Origin: a virus
Direction: 5' to 3' (one strand)
DNA length: 25,384 nt
Virus record (IMG/VR): IMGVR_UViG_3300006750_000072
Span: 1-25,384 of that record
Below the pieces are notes generated by a model. That model made no database searches. It saw nothing but the letters and a program-made list of their open reading frames with translations, and had not been told where the DNA came from. Below, one piece after another: positions 16,829 through 23,343 of this stretch (positions are counted from its first letter, which is position 1; every line of letters begins with the position of its first letter). Made by a program: the position numbers and the translations under genes.

Positions 16829-17394
16829 TTCTTCACCCTTGTCGCTTTCACGACCTTGCCTGTGTAAAGTCCAAGGGTGTCGGCATCAATGTCTTCACCA
16901 TTGCGTATGCGCTCACTGGCATAAGCCTTCAGCTGCATTGCATTGACCCCAAGGTCCAGATTCACAGGATGGCCATCTTTAACCAAGGACTCAGCGAGGC
17001 TTTTTGCTTCGTCGTGCTGGCTGACGCCAAACGCCATCTTCACCTCTGTACGAATCAGACCTTCACCATCATGAGCCTTGAGCCAATCAAGTGCAGCCTT
17101 ACGCTCTTTCTCTCCTTTAGGCAGCGAGCCGTTCACAAAGTTGGTGACCTTGCACTCCCAGCCATTGTGGGTGAAGTGATCGCTCTGGATCTCTGCCATA
17201 AGATCTGGCAACCGGCCAGTGCGCAAAGCCTGCAAGGATTGCTTAGCAGCCTTTAGATCTCCCTCAAGCTGGTCAATGATCTCCTCCATCTCAATCATTT
17301 CCTGAATGTGTTTGCGAAGTGAAGCCAGGGCATCCGGGGAGGCCGAAGCCTCCCCATCTGTGCCGACGTCAAATTCATCGACAACATCAATCAT
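16825..17394 (-). CDS. conserved-looking phage protein, 189 residues, function unknown
   Basis: The N-terminal 25 residues are acidic. A likely coiled coil follows (about residues 25-60, LASLRKHIQEMIEMEEIIDQ and LKAAKQSLQAL), and then a globular part with WECKVTNFVNGSLPKGEKERKAALDWL. The design resembles proteins that accompany phage ssDNA-binding proteins, and a nuclease-inhibitor (Gam-like) coiled coil is another thought. Neither is supported by a diagnostic motif. I use the ATG at 17394, which overlaps the upstream stop (TGATG) and has GAGGAGG 8 bases before it; a GTG one codon earlier is also open. It is the second gene of the minus operon. Confidence 0.65.
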   Translation of the reverse strand: MIDVVDEFDVGTDGEASASPDALASLRKHIQEMIEMEEIIDQLEGDLKAAKQSLQALRTGRLPDLMAEIQSDHFTHNGWECKVTNFVNGSLPKGEKERKAALDWLKAHDGEGLIRTEVKMAFGVSQHDEAKSLAESLVKDGHPVNLDLGVNAMQLKAYASERIRNGEDIDADTLGLYTGKVVKATRVKK

Positions 17395-18191
17395 CACATA
17401 TCCTCCTCATTGTTGGAGGTCGATGATGCCGGTTGCATGCTCGCAACATCAGCGTTGGCACTACCCTTGATCAAAGTCTCAAGGAAGCCTTCACAGTCAG
17501 ATTTGATTGACTGCCAATCAGCCACAACACCCTCTGCCTCCAATTCAGGCAGCGTGGCGCCACGGTCAATTTTCCAACCAGCCCATTCGCCTTCAGAGTT
17601 GGACTCCTCAGCGGTTGTGAGATGGTAGCACCGATAAAAGAGCTTCGGCGTATAAGTTGAACCATCGACCCTCGTCAGCTTTTCGCCAGTGGCAAGTGTG
17701 AGCCACTTACGAGCCTTCTTGAGCTGGGTCGACGCCATTGGCAGAAAACACTTGCGTCCTTCGGCTGTCAGATTGAGTCCGAAGAACTGAGCAGTCTCTG
17801 CAATGTAATTCCCATTCGGAAGAATTGGCTGCTTCTTCTCGTTGCGGGTAGTCTGATCCAAGATGGCAGGGTCAGAGTGGATGTTGACCAAGCCTTGGCC
17901 GCTGGCACGAGGTGCCCACTCAAGATAATCCTTGCGGTAAAACACCGGCAAGAATAAAATGCCATCGTTGAAAACCTCACCAGTGCCAATATCGCAGATG
18001 TCACCAATCTGGGCACCTTCAATGTACTCAGCCTTCTTCTTGGAGATTTGCGGTGAGAGCGCCTGCAGAATCGAGAGGCGAGGAACCAGTAGATCGTTGG
18101 CCCCTACATTTTCGAGGCCTGTGTTGCCTCCGTCAAACGCATTAGCAACTGAGACAGCGGTTGACTTCTTCTTAGTGATTGCTTTGGCCAT
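17394..18191 (-). CDS. putative single-stranded DNA-binding / replication protein
   Basis: This protein of 265 residues is the first gene of the replication operon. It has a basic N-terminus (AKAITKKKSTAV), then VPRLSILQALSPQISKKKAEYIEGAQIGD (about 36-65). FLPVFYRKDYLEWAPRASGQGL (about 80-102) comes next, and it closes with a Ser-rich linker and an acidic tip NNEEDM. The PRLxxLQALSP and YxRDYLEW blocks recur in uncharacterised phage replication proteins, and the acidic tail is typical of ssDNA-binding proteins that recruit partners. The assignment remains an inference. Two ATG codons follow an AGGAGG site; the second (18191) has the better spacing. Confidence 0.55.
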   Translation of the reverse strand: MAKAITKKKSTAVSVANAFDGGNTGLENVGANDLLVPRLSILQALSPQISKKKAEYIEGAQIGDICDIGTGEVFNDGILFLPVFYRKDYLEWAPRASGQGLVNIHSDPAILDQTTRNEKKQPILPNGNYIAETAQFFGLNLTAEGRKCFLPMASTQLKKARKWLTLATGEKLTRVDGSTYTPKLFYRCYHLTTAEESNSEGEWAGWKIDRGATLPELEAEGVVADWQSIKSDCEGFLETLIKGSANADVASMQPASSTSNNEEDM

Positions 18192-18255
18192 CATGGCCTC
18201 CTTTCATTCCCCATCCAAAAGGTATGGTGCTGTTGGGGATCCAGCACGCCTATTA

Positions 18256-18318: not shown

Positions 18319-18391
18319 TTGAAAAGGCTAAAAAGAAAATCTAAGAATTAGTGAAAAAACACTTTTCTTTTGTGCCATTTTCAGCGATAAT
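18319..18391 (+). promoter_or_regulatory. putative plus-strand early promoter region
   Basis: Two candidates lie upstream of the ribozyme operon. One is TTGAAA (18319-18324), 17 bases, TAAGAA (18342-18347). The other is a GATAAT box at 18386-18391 without a convincing -35, which would start RNA close to 18397, exactly where the structured leader begins. The region is AT-rich and lies between the divergent operons. Both are weak matches and either could be used. Confidence 0.4.
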
Positions 18392-18397
18392 ACTAGG

Positions 18398-18535
18398 GTC
18401 CGGTAGGAACCGGCACCTGGCCCGATGGCTCTTGATCCTCGCAGGTGGGTTGACCCCCAAAAGACGGTTCCTGGTTTCCGGCAAGAGATCCGACCCCAGC
18501 GAGGGGCACGCAAACTCTGCGAGTCAAACAACAAA
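18398..18535 (+). ncRNA. structured 5' leader of unknown class
   Basis: This GC-rich stretch of about 138 bases sits in an AT-rich gap and holds many complementary segments. They are CCGGT-AGGA-ACCGG; AGGAACCG with CGGTTCCT; CACCTG with CAGGTG; CTCTTG with CAAGAG; CTCGCAG with CTGCGAG; and CCCC-AGCGA-GGGG. Some pairings exclude each other, so a switch or a pseudoknot is possible. It ends where the first hammerhead begins. I could not match it to a riboswitch; TCCTCGC and GGCAA recall parts of HDV-like ribozymes, but the full fold does not fit. No reading frame with a ribosome binding site lies in it. Confidence 0.55.
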
Positions 18536-18598
18536 GTCGAAATCGGGCACACTGCCCGATCTTGGGGAAACGGGCTACCCCAACTGATGAGACAGCCC
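18536..18598 (+). ncRNA. type II hammerhead ribozyme 1
   Basis: Stem II is GTC (18536-18538) with GAC (18591-18593). The core is GAAA (18539-18542) and CTGATGA (18584-18590). Stem III is TCGGGCA (18543-18549) with TGCCCGA (18553-18559), closed on the core side by A-T. Cleavage is expected after C18561 (AUC triplet). Stem I is TTGGGG (18562-18567) with CCCCAA (18578-18583), with a 10-base loop. The loop GGGCT (18572-18576) can pair with AGCCC (18594-18598) as a pseudoknot. Because stem II is the open stem, this is type II. It lies between the structured leader and the first gene, and cleavage would remove the leader from the mRNA. Confidence 0.93.
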
Positions 18599-18623
18599 AC
18601 CAATCAAAGAAGAGGAGGCCATC

Positions 18624-19088
18624 ATGGTTGGCATCGCTTCTGATAAACGCATCATGACTGACAAGTTCAACTCCATGCAGGTTGCTGCTGACTCTATCGG
18701 AGAAAGCAATGACTGCACGGTCAAAGCTCTGGCAGCAGTCTGCAACGTTGACTACCTAGTTGCCCACACTGCTCTGGAACATGCTGGCCGCAAAAAAGGA
18801 AGAGGCTCATCCGTATGGGACATGTCTTCAGCTCTCAAGGAGTTTGGCTTCGAAATGGAGACGGTGGACCAGCAAGAGTTCATCAGCCAGTATCCTGGCA
18901 ACCACAAGAATCTACGATCAGTTACCACCCACCACATGGACCGCTTCAACAAGGTCTGGGCGGATGGCGAGACCTACTTGATTTATACAAGAGGTCACGT
19001 TCTGGCGGTTATTGACGGAGTCAACCACGACTGGACAAAAGGTCGTGCGATGAGAGCCGTTGCCATCAAGCGCATCAAGCGCATCTGA
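18624..19088 (+). CDS. papain-like cysteine peptidase-fold protein
   Basis: This 154-residue protein begins the plus-strand operon. It has a possible catalytic triad: Cys31 in ESNDCTVKALAAV, His125 in RGHVLAVIDG and Asn134 or Asp136 in VNHDW. This is the order of papain-like (C39/transglutaminase-like) proteins, and the NDCxVxALA plus AGRKxGxG pattern recurs in phage proteins of unknown role. Substrate and activity are unknown; a host-takeover peptidase is a reasonable inference. A strong GAGGAGG site precedes the ATG. The TGA stop is part of stem II of hammerhead 2, so ribosomes terminating here would cover the ribozyme. Confidence 0.75.
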   Translation: MVGIASDKRIMTDKFNSMQVAADSIGESNDCTVKALAAVCNVDYLVAHTALEHAGRKKGRGSSVWDMSSALKEFGFEMETVDQQEFISQYPGNHKNLRSVTTHHMDRFNKVWADGETYLIYTRGHVLAVIDGVNHDWTKGRAMRAVAIKRIKRI

Positions 19089-19149
19089 CGAAACCGGGCA
19101 CGTTGCCCGGTCTGTGGGATCTGCCCTCCCCACACTGATGAGTCAGGGC
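19087..19149 (+). ncRNA. type II hammerhead ribozyme 2
   Basis: Stem II is GAC (19087-19089, extendable to CTGAC from 19085) with GTC (19142-19144, extendable to GTCAG). The core is GAAA (19090-19093) and CTGATGA (19135-19141). Stem III is CCGGGCA (19094-19100) with TGCCCGG (19104-19110). Cleavage is expected after C19112 (GUC). Stem I is TGTGGG (19113-19118) with CCCACA (19129-19134), with a 10-base loop. The pseudoknot is GCCCT (19123-19127) with AGGGC (19145-19149). The stem II extension and the pseudoknot compete for two bases. It separates the first and second genes, and the upstream TGA (19086-19088) lies in stem II. Confidence 0.95.
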
Positions 19150-19173
19150 ACCACCTTAAAGGGAGTCAACATC

Positions 19174-19515
19174 ATGTTGAAAGTCCACCAGATCGTTCTC
19201 ACCACTCCTCAAGTCAATCAGGTCAATATGGCCAGCCGCAACAACGAGCCTGTTCCGGAGTTTTACCCAGCCTACCTCGACGCCACGTTCGGCAAGATTG
19301 AGAAGGCACAGGAGCTTGGCCTCTACAATCACGTTGCGGATGTCAGCACTGACGACCTCGAAGTTGGCTTTGCGGTCATGAACCGCTGGAGCGAGGTTGA
19401 CGAGAAGATGGTTCGCCGCCACGCCGACCTTCACTCCATGAGCGTTGGCGACATCGTCGAGAAGGAAGACGGCTCAAAGTGGCTGTGCACCTCTTTCGGA
19501 TTCACCCAAATTTAG
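19174..19515 (+). CDS. small phage protein with SMSVGD motif
   Basis: I use the ATG at 19174 (113 residues) because AAAGGGAG precedes it; a longer frame would run back through ribozyme 2. The N-terminus is beta-like (MLKVHQIVLTTPQVNQVNM). The C-terminal block SMSVGDIVEKEDGSKWLCTSFGF resembles small proteins found beside DUF932 genes in phages and plasmids. Molecular function is unknown. The TAG stop overlaps the first base pair of stem II of ribozyme 3, so end of translation and ribozyme folding are linked in space. Confidence 0.75.
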   Translation: MLKVHQIVLTTPQVNQVNMASRNNEPVPEFYPAYLDATFGKIEKAQELGLYNHVADVSTDDLEVGFAVMNRWSEVDEKMVRRHADLHSMSVGDIVEKEDGSKWLCTSFGFTQI

Positions 19516-19576
19516 TCGAAACCGACCTTCGGGTCGGTCTTGGGGATCTGCCCTCCCCCAACTGATGAGACAGGGC
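19515..19576 (+). ncRNA. type II hammerhead ribozyme 3
   Basis: Stem II is GTC (19515-19517) with GAC (19569-19571). The core is GAAA (19518-19521) and CTGATGA (19562-19568). Stem III is CCGACC (19522-19527) with GGTCGG (19532-19537), capped by a TTCG tetraloop. Cleavage is expected after C19539 (GUC). Stem I is TTGGGG (19540-19545) with CCCCAA (19556-19561), with a 10-base loop. The pseudoknot is GCCCT (19550-19554) with AGGGC (19572-19576). The C(UUCG)G tetraloop, absent from the other copies, shows that stem III is kept as a structure and not as sequence. Confidence 0.95.
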
Positions 19577-19599
19577 TTACTACTATGAGGAGAAAGAAA

Positions 19600-19800
19600 A
19601 TGACTGAAGCAACTCCTAAAGTCTATGGCATTGATGCCTTCCTCGGCAACATGATGGGGAAGGATCGTGTCGAAACGATCGCAGCTGGCATGTGCATGAT
19701 GTGCGACGGCCATGCCAAAGAGTTCACTGATGATCTCTCAAAGAAAGAGTACACCATCAGCGGAATGTGTCAGAAATGCCAGGACAAAGCGTTTACCTGA
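19600..19800 (+). CDS. small zinc-ribbon-like protein
   Basis: This 66-residue protein has two Cys pairs, CMMC and CQKC, in an arrangement (about residues 32-60) that suggests a zinc ribbon. Between them is FTDDLSKKEYTISGM, a pattern seen in small phage and plasmid proteins near DUF932 genes. The ATG at 19600 has an excellent GAGGAGA site; an upstream in-frame ATG lies inside ribozyme 3 and is unlikely. It probably binds DNA, RNA or protein, with no evidence for which. Ribozyme 4 begins 8 bases after its TGA. Confidence 0.78.
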   Translation: MTEATPKVYGIDAFLGNMMGKDRVETIAAGMCMMCDGHAKEFTDDLSKKEYTISGMCQKCQDKAFT

Positions 19801-19808
19801 AACCAAAA

Positions 19809-19871
19809 GGCGAAACCGGGGCATCGCCCCGGTCTGCAGGTCACGGGCATCCTGCACTGATGAGCTTGCCC
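19809..19871 (+). ncRNA. type II hammerhead ribozyme 4
   Basis: Stem II is GGC (19809-19811) with GCT (19864-19866), one G-U pair. The core is GAAA (19812-19815) and CTGATGA (19857-19863). Stem III is CCGGGGC (19816-19822) with GCCCCGG (19826-19832). Cleavage is expected after C19834 (GUC). Stem I is TGCAGG (19835-19840) with CCTGCA (19851-19856), with a 10-base loop. The pseudoknot is GGGCA (19845-19849) with TGCCC (19867-19871). Compared with the other copies, stems I, II and III and the pseudoknot all change on both strands together. It is followed after 9 bases by the long stem element before the DUF932 gene. Confidence 0.95.
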
Positions 19872-19880
19872 ACACCGAGA

Positions 19881-20036
19881 GAGGCACTTACCGGGAAGGT
19901 AGCATTGACACGACCAAATAACGCAATGCGCCAGTTCCGAGAGGCGACGCGCTGGACCAGAGGTGATGCATACACACTGGAAAGGCACTGGAGAAGTTCA
20001 GGCTGTGGTGGCCGGACCCTTCCCGGTAAGTGCCTC
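19881..20036 (+). ncRNA. 156-nt structured RNA element closed by a perfect 19-bp stem
   Basis: GAGGCACTTACCGGGAAGG (19881-19899) is exactly complementary to 20018-20036. The 118 bases between hold smaller hairpins: GCATTG with CAATGC, CCAG with CTGG (twice), and CTGGA-GAAG-TTCAG. The element lies between ribozyme 4 and the DUF932 gene, and its right arm ends 21 bases before the ATG. An open frame runs through it, but it has no start signal and also runs through ribozyme 4, so I treat the stretch as RNA. The class is not recognised. A protected 5' UTR, a protein-binding site or a new catalytic RNA are all possible. Confidence 0.65.
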
Positions 20037-20057: not shown

Positions 20058-21011
20058 ATGTCACATCAAGTTGAAACAATGGCCTACGCAGGTGCAGTCC
20101 CTTGGCATGGACTTGGTGCTAGGGTCGATCAAGACGTTAGCGTTGAAGAGATGCTTGAGGCTGCTGGCCTTAACTGGCGTCTTGAGAAGTTGCCGCTGGT
20201 TGCGAAGTTGCCCAACGGTGATGCCCTGCCAGTCGATGACAAGTTCGCTCTGACCCGTAACACAGACAACAAGGTCATGAGTGTTTGCTCCGGAGCATGG
20301 ACACCGTTCCAGCCGGAAGAGACTATCAGCTTCATGCGCGAGTATGTTGAAGCTGGTGGGGCCAAGCTGGAGACAGCTGGCTCGTTGCGTGGCGGTCGCA
20401 CTGTCTGGGGTCTGGCCAAATTGGACCATACCTTCTCAGTCCGCAAGGGTGACGAAGTGCATGGCTACCTGCTGATCACATCACCGATGGAAGTTGGCAG
20501 GTCCACTCAGATCCGCACCACCACTGTCAGGGTCGTCTGCGCTAACACGCTGGCGATGGCTGAAGGCTCCTCCGACCTGAACTACTCTCAGAACCATCTG
20601 ACAGAGTTCGACGTCGCAGCTGCCAAGGAGAAGGTCAACGAGGCTCACAATCATCTGATTATTGCCGAGAAGAGATTTAAGACAATCTCAAAACTCAAAA
20701 TCGGCATTGAGGATGCTGTTCGTGAGGTGATCGTGCCCACGATAATACCCAAGGTCGCAGAGAGCGAAGCCTACGACGACATCATGCTCCCTGAGTCCCA
20801 GCCCAAAGTGTTGAGCGAGATCATCAACTCAATCAACAATGCTCCTGGTGCTGCTCCTGGTACTGGGTGGGGAGTCCTAAACGGTGTCACCCACTGGGGT
20901 GATCACGTTGCTGGACGCAACAACGCCACTCGCATGCATCGTGCATGGGTCGGCGACATCGCTCGGCATAAGATTGATGTTGAGCAAAAGCTGTACGAAA
21001 TGGCAGCTTAA
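20058..21011 (+). CDS. DUF932 phage/plasmid-like protein
   Basis: This 317-residue protein matches the DUF932 (TIGR03299-type) family of phages and plasmids. It starts MSHQVETMAYAGAVPWHGLG, a highly typical opening. ADE/LPLVAKLPNG-like and KFALTRNTDNKVM segments follow near residues 45-70, and RTTTVRVVCANTLAMA lies near 155. It ends with TGWGVLNGVTHWGDHVAGRN near 270-290. The biochemical function of DUF932 is not established. The start is the ATG at 20058 with TTGGAG upstream, not the longer frame that covers ribozyme 4. A rho-independent terminator follows it. It is the largest gene of the ribozyme-punctuated block. Confidence 0.92.
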   Translation: MSHQVETMAYAGAVPWHGLGARVDQDVSVEEMLEAAGLNWRLEKLPLVAKLPNGDALPVDDKFALTRNTDNKVMSVCSGAWTPFQPEETISFMREYVEAGGAKLETAGSLRGGRTVWGLAKLDHTFSVRKGDEVHGYLLITSPMEVGRSTQIRTTTVRVVCANTLAMAEGSSDLNYSQNHLTEFDVAAAKEKVNEAHNHLIIAEKRFKTISKLKIGIEDAVREVIVPTIIPKVAESEAYDDIMLPESQPKVLSEIINSINNAPGAAPGTGWGVLNGVTHWGDHVAGRNNATRMHRAWVGDIARHKIDVEQKLYEMAA

Positions 21012-21118: not shown

Positions 21119-21505
21119 ATGGCCAAAGATTATTCAAGACTGACTTTAAAGCAACTCGCTGCTGAATACAACAACCTTGCTATTGAGGTTGAGAAACAGA
21201 CCGGCGACATCATCCCATCCGTCAAGAAGTTCTCAAACAGGGAGTCTGGCATTAGGCGCACAACTGAGCTGGCCAAGACTCTTGGCCCCAAGGACGACAA
21301 CCGGGGACGTCCAGCTGGCAACAACGGGAAGGGTCTCTTTCCCATCGTTGACGGCAATCCCAGACAAGCAGGGTCGCATGGCTGGCATGCATTCAAGATT
21401 GTCCAGGACAATCCCGGTATCTTGTATGAGGACTATTTAGCTTCCGGTGGCGAGAGCCATCACCTTCGTTGGGACATCCAACACAAGTTCGTGGAGGCTC
21501 GGTGA
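21119..21505 (+). CDS. basic hypothetical protein, 128 residues
   Basis: I do not recognise a named family. The N-terminal part (YSRLTLKQLAAEYNNLAIEV, then KKFSNRESGIRRTTELAKTL) looks helical and basic and could bind DNA. The C-terminal part (AGSHGWHAFKIVQDNPGILYEDYLASG, then HHLRWDIQHKFVEAR) looks like a second small helical domain. The ATG at 21119 has a strong GAGGAGG site. The 33 bases covering this site and start are nearly identical to those before the gene at 18624. It ends 42 bases before palindrome copy 2. Confidence 0.7.
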   Translation: MAKDYSRLTLKQLAAEYNNLAIEVEKQTGDIIPSVKKFSNRESGIRRTTELAKTLGPKDDNRGRPAGNNGKGLFPIVDGNPRQAGSHGWHAFKIVQDNPGILYEDYLASGGESHHLRWDIQHKFVEAR

Positions 21506-21547
21506 GCGAATTCACCGAAAAACTAAATCCTTGGTTTCACACAAAAG

Positions 21548-21662
21548 TGAGGTTCGGAGTTCGTAATTTTTACTTGTTTCAAGACTTTCAGGGAATTAAG
21601 AAAAGAAATAATAATTCCCTGGAGTTTTGGAATACAATGAAAAAAGCGAACTCCGAACCTTG
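21548..21662 (+). repeat. 115-bp nested palindromic element, copy 2
   Basis: It runs from TGAGGTTCGGAGTTCG to CGAACTCCGAACCTTG. An outer inverted repeat of 13 bp (GGTTCGGAGTTCG) surrounds a perfect inner 10-bp one, CAGGGAATTA with TAATTCCCTG. It matches the reverse complement of copy 1 through most of its length. Here the inner stem is perfect and the outer stem is partly lost, the reverse of copy 1. It contains TTGTTT (21574-21579), 17 bases, TAAGAA (21597-21602). It lies between the basic protein gene and the helicase gene; the helicase ribosome binding site (GGAGG) begins right at its end. Function unknown. Confidence 0.85.
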
Positions 21663-21675
21663 GAGGATACAAGTT

Positions 21676-23343
21676 ATGTTGTTGACAATTGAAGGCAAAT
21701 ATGCCACCCTCCACACACGGATGACCCCAGCAATCATGATGGTGTTGCCACGGCTGGAGGGTCGGCGCAAATGGCTCAAGGGAGGTGGCCTCAAGATGGA
21801 GGCTACTGACCACAATATGGAGGTCTTGAAGGAGGGTGGCATAATCCTTGATATAAAGGACCCTATTTTGGTGCAGGGGGACGATCTCAGCACTGCCTTA
21901 GGTTTTGCACCATATGAACAGAAGACCACACCCTACAACCATCAAATCATAGCTCTGGAGCGTTGCACAGCCCAGAAATCATTTGCTCTGTTCATGGAGC
22001 AGGGAACCGGCAAGACAAAGGTCGCAATTGACCATGCTGGTGGGCTGTTTTGTGCTGGCAAAATCACTGGTGTATTGGTGGTTGCCCCCAAGGGTGTTCA
22101 CCGCCAGTGGGTGGATGAGCAGCTCCCTACACATTCAGGCTGTGAGTTTACAGCCGGAGTTTGGCCCCAGTTGAACCTAATCTGTCCACTGTTCCTGCTG
22201 CCAGAAGAGCTGTGCAAGGGAGAGGACCTTAAGTGGTTGGCCATCAACATTGATGGCATAAAGACTGCAAAGGGCAGGCTCACTTGTTTAGAGTTCATCA
22301 AGAGCCACAAAGGCAAGGTGCTGATGATTGTGGACGAAAGCCACACCATCAAGAATGCTAAATCCAAACGATGGAAAGCTGCCAATGAGCTTGGCAACTG
22401 TGTTGACTATCGCTTGGCCTTAACTGGTACCCCAATCGCCAAAGACCTGACAGAAGAGTGGGCCCAGTTCAAGTGGCTTGATGAAAGGATCATAGGCATC
22501 CGTTACATCACAGCCTTCCGCAATGAGTATTGCATCATGGGAGGCTTTGAAGGACGAGCCATAGTTGGCCATAAGAATGTTGAGAGGCTGCAAGAGAAAG
22601 TTAAGTCCTACACATTCAGGGCCACCAAGGAAGACATTGGCATCTTGCCGAAGGCTTACGATCGATGGAAATTTGATCTGAGTAAGAAGCAGAGGTCCAT
22701 GATCAAGGAGATGAAGAAGTTGCTTATCACCCAGATTGATTCTGGTGAAATCTCAACTGCTTCTAATGCTGCTGTGGCAGTGATGCGCATGCAGCAAATT
22801 GCCAGCGGGTTTATGGTTGATGATGATGAGAACATCATCATGATTGAAAAGGGTCAGAAGAAGAACCCACGCCTCACAGCTCTGGCAGAGTGCCTGGAAA
22901 GTATTGAAGGAAAGGTCATCATATGGGCACGCTTTGTTAAGGACATTGAGTTAATCAAGTCCATGCTTGGTGACGACTGTGTCACTTATTATGGGGCAAC
23001 CAGCGACAAAGAGCGCAAACTAGCGATTGAGCGATTCCTCAGTGAAGAGGAAGGTTCTCCCAGATACTTTGTCAGCAATCCTGCAGCTGGTGGTGTTGGC
23101 CTTAATCTTCAAGGCCAGTGCAGACGAGCAGTCTACTATTCAAACTCCGACAACTCAATTGAGCGTTGGCAGTCTGAAGACAGGATCCATAGGATCGGCG
23201 TGACAGGTGGCGTAGTGTATACTGACTTGATCGGTGTCGGCTCTGTTGATGCTAAAATTCTGCGCAACCTGCGTAACAAGAAGACAGTCAGTGACATGGC
23301 TCTGGGTGATATCAGAAACTGGCTGGAGGAGGAAGAATGGTAA
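21676..23343 (+). CDS. SNF2-type DEAD/DEAH-box helicase
   Basis: This 555-residue superfamily 2 ATPase has motif I MEQGTGKTKVAI (107-118), motif II IVDESH (218-223) and motif III LTGTP (249-253). C-terminal motifs V and VI are AGGVGLNLQGQCRRAVYYS and QSEDRIHRIG (near residue 520). This is the SNF2/Rad54-like pattern of phage helicases involved in replication or recombination. I chose the ATG at 21676 because TGGAGG lies 10 bases upstream. In-frame starts at 21637 and 21469 would put the palindromic element inside the coding region. It is the largest plus-strand gene. Its TAA overlaps the next ATG. Confidence 0.93.
   Translation: MLLTIEGKYATLHTRMTPAIMMVLPRLEGRRKWLKGGGLKMEATDHNMEVLKEGGIILDIKDPILVQGDDLSTALGFAPYEQKTTPYNHQIIALERCTAQKSFALFMEQGTGKTKVAIDHAGGLFCAGKITGVLVVAPKGVHRQWVDEQLPTHSGCEFTAGVWPQLNLICPLFLLPEELCKGEDLKWLAINIDGIKTAKGRLTCLEFIKSHKGKVLMIVDESHTIKNAKSKRWKAANELGNCVDYRLALTGTPIAKDLTEEWAQFKWLDERIIGIRYITAFRNEYCIMGGFEGRAIVGHKNVERLQEKVKSYTFRATKEDIGILPKAYDRWKFDLSKKQRSMIKEMKKLLITQIDSGEISTASNAAVAVMRMQQIASGFMVDDDENIIMIEKGQKKNPRLTALAECLESIEGKVIIWARFVKDIELIKSMLGDDCVTYYGATSDKERKLAIERFLSEEEGSPRYFVSNPAAGGVGLNLQGQCRRAVYYSNSDNSIERWQSEDRIHRIGVTGGVVYTDLIGVGSVDAKILRNLRNKKTVSDMALGDIRNWLEEEEW

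Follow-up and report, generated by a model that had tools for sequence, protein, structure and literature searches.

The stretch of DNA analysed here (the window) comprises 25,384 nucleotides of a viral record in IMG/VR (IMGVR_UViG_3300006750_000072). Its plus strand carries an operon that begins with three small genes (A, B and C), continues with a gene for a DUF932 protein (gene D) and later includes a gene for a SNF2-type DNA helicase, and a divergent Pam3 gp34-like gene forms the left boundary of this operon (Table 1). Between positions 18536 and 19871, four complete type II hammerhead ribozymes (HH1 to HH4) are found on the plus strand, with every core base matching. The first of these is preceded by a leader of about 138 nt (18398-18535) that runs from a possible promoter (GATAAT near 18387); the predicted fold of this leader is no better than that of shuffled sequence (z 0.3), and a promoter search in the window returned weak matches only.

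Table 1. Ribozymes, genes and other elements of the operon, in window coordinates
Feature	Position	Strand	Remarks
Pam3 gp34-like gene	17394..18194	-	divergent; left operon boundary; stays beside the hammerhead array in relatives
HH1, type II hammerhead	18536..18598	+	predicted cut after C18561
HH1 stem II	18536-18538 / 18591-18593	+	GTC / GAC
HH1 core	18539-18542; 18584-18590	+	GAAA; CTGATGA
HH1 stem III	18542-18549 / 18553-18560	+	
HH1 stem I	18562-18567 / 18578-18583	+	
HH1 pseudoknot	18572-18576 / 18594-18598	+	GGGCU / AGCCC
Gene A	18624..19088	+	154 aa; phrog_3754 (unknown function); Shine-Dalgarno (SD) AGGAGG at 18613-18618
HH2, type II hammerhead	19087..19149	+	predicted cut after C19112; pseudoknot GCCCT / AGGGC
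Gene B	19174..19515	+	113 aa; no family; SD GGGAG
HH3, type II hammerhead	19515..19576	+	predicted cut after C19539; pseudoknot GCCCT / AGGGC
Gene C	19600..19800	+	66 aa; C-terminal match to phrog_19722 (unknown function); SD GAGGAG
HH4, type II hammerhead	19809..19871	+	predicted cut after C19834; pseudoknot GGGCA / TGCCC, covarying against HH1-HH3
Structured element between HH4 and gene D	19883..20034	+	perfect 17-bp inverted repeat 19883-19899 / 20018-20034
Gene D	20058..21011	+	317-aa DUF932 protein (PF06067, phrog_1221)
SNF2-type DNA helicase gene	21469..23343	+	later in the same operon; syntenic in the relative G017

All four elements share one order of parts, namely a 3-nt strand ending in C, GAAA, the stem III hairpin, UC, the stem I hairpin, CUGAUGA and a 3-nt strand starting with G, and this stem order with an open stem II is that of a type II hammerhead. 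Stem III measures 7-8 bp, stem I 6 bp and stem II at least 3 bp. Such an arrangement is rare by chance: the pattern CGAAA-N-UC-N-CUGAUGAG has exactly 4 matches in the window against a mean of 0.01 per shuffled window, a full descriptor (core plus stems I, II and III) found 1 match in 200 whole-window shuffles, and the same descriptor gave 500 matches in 7.3 Mb of loci as opposed to 1 in the reversed-sequence control. A second assembly of the same virus (a 38-kb contig) contains the identical four ribozymes and none elsewhere in the contig. The four complete type II hammerheads reported in a preliminary description of this DNA are thus borne out, core and stems I-III included, and the cut positions that it gave, those of Table 1, are correct as predictions from the sequence.

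The three stems listed there also stand, while a further helix had been overlooked. More specifically, in all four ribozymes and in the same register, the 5 nt that immediately follow stem II on its 3′ side are paired with a 5-nt stretch of loop I, forming a pseudoknot that is a majority feature of the Rfam family RF02276 (Hammerhead_II) and three pairs of which covary. In an alignment of HH1 to HH4 (with an N placeholder put into the shorter tetraloop of HH3), 88 of 88 cells are paired and two-sided changes occur in 12 of the 22 pairs; none of 500 shuffles reaches any of the five covariation measures, and sliding the pairing partners by 1-3 columns lowers the paired cells to 32-48%. Nested folding, which leaves the pseudoknot aside, returns the hammerhead layout for HH3 and most of it for HH2. 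For HH1 and HH4 the nested minimum free energy structures are alternative folds, stem I facing competition from the strong pseudoknot helix, and a fraction of these molecules may accordingly be misfolded.

A search of the window against Rfam at the gathering threshold gave no match. This blank is a threshold effect, since a search by E-value with RF02276 recovers three of the four ribozymes with E-values of 2e-5 to 5e-4 (HH4 at 36.7 bits and 2.2e-5, HH3 at 33.0 bits and 2.1e-4, HH2 at 31.7 bits and 4.6e-4), all of them under the gathering score of 37 bits. For HH1, though it is complete in core and stems, RF02276 gives no match even with the E-value limit relaxed to 10. The covariance-model check that had been suggested at the outset therefore finds HH2 to HH4, below the gathering score, and leaves HH1 unmatched. 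The gathering score is a curation threshold and not a structural feature, and all structural features of the family are present in HH1 to HH4: (i) the order stem II-GAAA-stem III-UC-stem I-CUGAUGA-stem II, with stems I and III closed by loops and a short, open stem II, (ii) the core (CUGANGA, GAAA and a UH cleavage site in the family, CUGAUGA, GAAA and UC here), (iii) the C17 cleavage site and the G10.1-C11.1 pair and (iv) the pseudoknot between loop I and the 3′ tail. The stem sequences, in contrast, are unlike the family consensus, and the scores lie just under the gathering score for HH2 to HH4, with HH1 undetected. A match to freshwater-2 RNA (RF02980) over HH3 was at chance level and was rejected.

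The first three ribozymes are placed with near-constant spacing ahead of a gene, the distance from CTGATGA to ATG being 33 nt for HH1 and gene A, 32 nt for HH2 and gene B and 31 nt for HH3 and gene C, with a Shine-Dalgarno sequence in each gap. On their other side they adjoin the preceding gene: the stop codon of gene A (TGA, 19086-19088) overlaps stem II of HH2, that of gene B (TAG, 19513-19515) touches stem II of HH3, and HH4 starts 8 nt past the stop of gene C. The earlier claim that each of the first four genes is preceded by a hammerhead therefore holds for genes A to C, but the cut of HH4 lies 224 nt from the start of gene D (20058). An inverted-repeat element takes up about 150 nt of this gap, and the distance counts against reading the array as punctuation between genes. 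The arms of the element (GGCACTTACCGGGAAGG and CCTTCCCGGTAAGTGCC) can be extended outward and enclose about 118 nt with several hairpins; its predicted fold reaches -75.6 kcal/mol (z -4.9), no Rfam family matched it, and among the loci compared it is found only in this virus. Judged against the related virus G017, it looks inserted between HH4 and the DUF932 gene, and its sequence would be compatible with either a structured RNA or a small mobile element.

Similar placement is seen in other phages. Strict core patterns (with the stem II letters fixed in two of the scans) were used to scan IMG/VR, and the resulting counts are lower bounds from a sample; gene contexts were called with a crude gene finder, the controls being treated under the identical rule. 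By descriptor, at least 329 distinct type II hammerheads were found. Among the matches listed, 76% of type II ribozymes have a Shine-Dalgarno sequence and start codon no farther than 40 nt from the core, against 14% of random sites, with the distance from core to start peaking at 25-35 nt, and pairing of at least 4 bp between loop I and the tail occurs in 86% against 39% with permuted tails. Consecutive ribozymes among these matches bracket exactly one open reading frame in 90 of 148 pairs (61%, against 7% when positions are shuffled), and the frames so enclosed have a median length of about 102 aa. That a run of four would be special was part of the original reading; among the matches listed it is not exceptional, since tandem runs reach 9-11 in IMG/VR contigs (the descriptor finds as many as nine clustered on the same strand, and RF02276, searched independently over whole contigs, up to ten in G029 and nine in G038). 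Tandem runs of four type II hammerheads are also present on two contigs that belong to bacterial genome assemblies, L392 (Bathymodiolus japonicus gill symbiont, NZ_BLYC01000025.1) and L490. The idea that only type II ribozymes sit at gene junctions was rejected: types I and III are also found there, less often than type II, and type I clusters as well, with a start within 40 nt in 47% of type I against 77% of type II among the matches listed, although these samples were seeded differently and the comparison is indicative only. In one viral contig with eight hammerheads (L615), the nearest elements upstream of a DUF932 gene are of type I, so that type I arrays exist too.

The upstream side of these ribozymes bears on a second reading. 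Among the matches listed, 81% of phage type II elements, against 16% of random sites, have an upstream open frame whose stop codon is no more than 20 nt away, and with the stops of genes A and B on stem II of HH2 and HH3 this would suit regulated switches, in which a terminating ribosome at a stop in or next to stem II, or else a ligand or protein, blocks the core and cutting is tied to whether the upstream gene is translated. A ribosome halted at the stop of gene A or B could indeed cover the core of HH2 or HH3 and delay cutting. However, HH1 has no gene before it on the plus strand, the stems hold no inserted aptamer-like domain, and the tight packing of phage genes would by itself place stops at such positions, so that regulation of this kind is unlikely.

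A hammerhead cut leaves a 2′,3′-cyclic phosphate on the upstream product and a 5′-OH on the downstream product. Such ends are substrates of RtcB, and the excised units could in principle be ligated into circular single-gene mRNAs by the host enzyme or by the reverse ribozyme reaction. In 75% of adjacent array pairs, the stem II halves of one ribozyme are complementary to those of the next, which could bring the ends of a unit together, but this array-wide figure (74.8%) is no different from that of within-array shuffles, the middle stem II pair in the window is mismatched between all neighbours (GTC/GAC, GAC/GTC, GTC/GAC, GGC/GCT), RtcB is encoded in 1 of 31 array contigs, and circular or spliced products were looked for by Perreault et al. 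in 2011 and none were found (PMC3088659); circularisation is thus very improbable. The converse idea, that neighbours keep orthogonal stem II sequences to avoid cross-folding, fits the window, where all neighbours mismatch, and fails across arrays.

Cutting between genes as the preferred reading also draws on relatives with the same operon. A search of INPHARED found no DNA-level relatives. In G017 (IMGVR_UViG_3300032278_000067), where gene A is 49% identical, DUF932 58%, gene E 46%, the helicase 50% and the Pam3 gp34-like gene 57%, there are 5-6 hammerheads; gene A follows one of them at 51 nt and DUF932 another at 84 nt. G029 (also L747; IMGVR_UViG_3300038412_000035), with a DUF932 gene 51% identical, has 10-11 type II hammerheads, the last 57 nt before DUF932; these are without the usual pseudoknot, and two have a CCGAUGA (U4C) core. 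Eleven type II elements can be counted over some 4.9 kb of this contig, close to one for each gene. A third relative, L743 (DUF932 57% identical), has a single hammerhead, again 57 nt before DUF932. A ribozyme thus stands directly before DUF932 in all three, and in G017 before gene A as well. The arrays of G017 and G029 resemble that of the window in lying in the operon beside the Pam3 gp34-like gene, with syntenic genes about 46-58% identical, and differ in number (5-6 and 10-11 against four). Since the ribozyme sequences of the three relatives are unlike those of the window, position and function appear to outlast sequence.

The trait is also dispensable, and arrays are gained and lost: the close relatives L741, L744-L746, L748 and L749 contain no detectable hammerhead. 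No convincing hammerhead was found in the stretches examined of the gene A relatives L126-L132 and the DUF932 relatives L134-L142 (one poor descriptor match each in L138, L140 and L141), or of the named phages Erebus, RHph_I1_18, ACP17 and P26059A, and gene identity alone therefore does not predict a hammerhead. DUF932 is all the same the gene family found most often immediately after a hammerhead, counted over types I to III, with at least 8 contigs in the sample (for example at loci L167, L237, L369, L615, L687, L583, L617, L743 and L747), and is present in 8 of 28 array contigs, mostly inside the array or at its end; these are raw counts within the sample, and the apparent enrichment may be taken as a lead. 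The next family, a MoxR-like AAA ATPase as judged from sequence, follows hammerheads in at least 6 contigs of the sample. In L752, L753 and L754, a type III hammerhead around 5946 is predicted to cut some 55 nt ahead of a DUF932 gene.

In the corresponding intergenic gap before DUF932, L741 (5840-6012) has two plain hairpins in place of a hammerhead, as if paired end hairpins might be useful even without self-cleavage. A terminal hairpin can protect an mRNA with no cut being made, and the window elements might likewise be inactive remnants or plain 5′ and 3′ hairpins with a role in mRNA stability or in directing host RNases. Against this, all catalytic bases in HH1 to HH4 are intact while the stems drift by compensatory change, and among the matches listed 337 of 356 array hammerheads have C at the cut site, with a nearly invariant core, which makes loss of catalysis very improbable.

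The four elements are very probably genuine type II hammerheads that act as active, self-cleaving intercistronic punctuation of the plus-strand operon, and the array would almost certainly chop one long message into single-gene messages. This role, put forward in the preliminary description, is well supported by (i) covariation, (ii) placement at gene junctions, (iii) conservation at the operon and (iv) the statistics from other phages, from which we infer cleavage itself. HH1 to HH4 would act in cis, while the operon is being transcribed or shortly afterwards, each severing the polycistronic RNA within the gap ahead of a gene. The stem III hairpin would then close the 3′ end of the upstream mRNA, carrying the 2′,3′-cyclic phosphate, and the stem I hairpin, held by the pseudoknot, would open the 5′ end of the downstream mRNA with its 5′-OH, while the ribosome-binding site, starting just past the pseudoknot, would stay accessible. 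As both new ends would be structured and neither would bear a 5′ phosphate, decay that senses 5′-monophosphates or free 3′ tails should be slowed. The probable gain would be separate, end-protected mRNAs, allowing the levels and lifetimes of small genes to be set independently.

A much wider claim, which is rather unlikely, would make gene-by-gene type II arrays a widespread and selected phage system of mRNA maturation, with one self-cutting element per junction, a hairpin on both new ends and gating by a ribosome that terminates at a stop in stem II. The DUF932 operon would then be a preferred site, acquiring, enlarging and losing arrays of between 1 and 11 ribozymes but retaining the position before DUF932. 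What hammerhead ribozymes do for bacterial viruses has been a question since 2011. With one ribozyme per junction, a start about 25-35 nt past the core, a stop against stem II and a conserved array, the processing idea becomes a testable general rule, and DUF932 stands out as the gene most often behind such ribozymes among the matches listed. If true, it would describe an RNA-only, protein-free route from an operon to defined monocistronic mRNAs.

The array had been taken initially for a distinct gene-expression system, which is not supported, as the same kind was described by Perreault et al. in 2011 (PMC3088659). These authors reported natural type II hammerheads with a pseudoknot, clustered around single phage or prophage genes, and proposed processing into mRNAs of single-gene length for prophage clusters (PMC3088659). 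That proposal is extended here by statistics on arrays, by the conservation seen at the operon of DUF932 and by arrays of larger size; no later paper on such arrays was found in the open-access literature (most subscription journals being outside this scope). The 2011 clusters (their Fig. 3) include those of Clostridium scindens and Azorhizobium caulinodans and the triple ardA set of Agrobacterium tumefaciens, and tandem sets cleave, three of them in vitro and the Agrobacterium set also in E. coli (PMC3088659). In those clusters, at least two hammerheads on one strand stand around individual genes, and the window follows suit with four on the plus strand, around genes A to C and before gene D; in both, several tandem ribozymes flank single genes or short gene blocks. 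The window differs in its genes and phage, in having four of one type and in being known here from sequence alone. Another parallel is HHphage of the haloviruses HF1 and HF2, for which the mapped 5′ end of a transcript lies within 3 nt of the cut (PMC3088659). It shares with the window a hammerhead just upstream of a phage start codon, and it differs in its variant core, its single copy and its archaeal virus.
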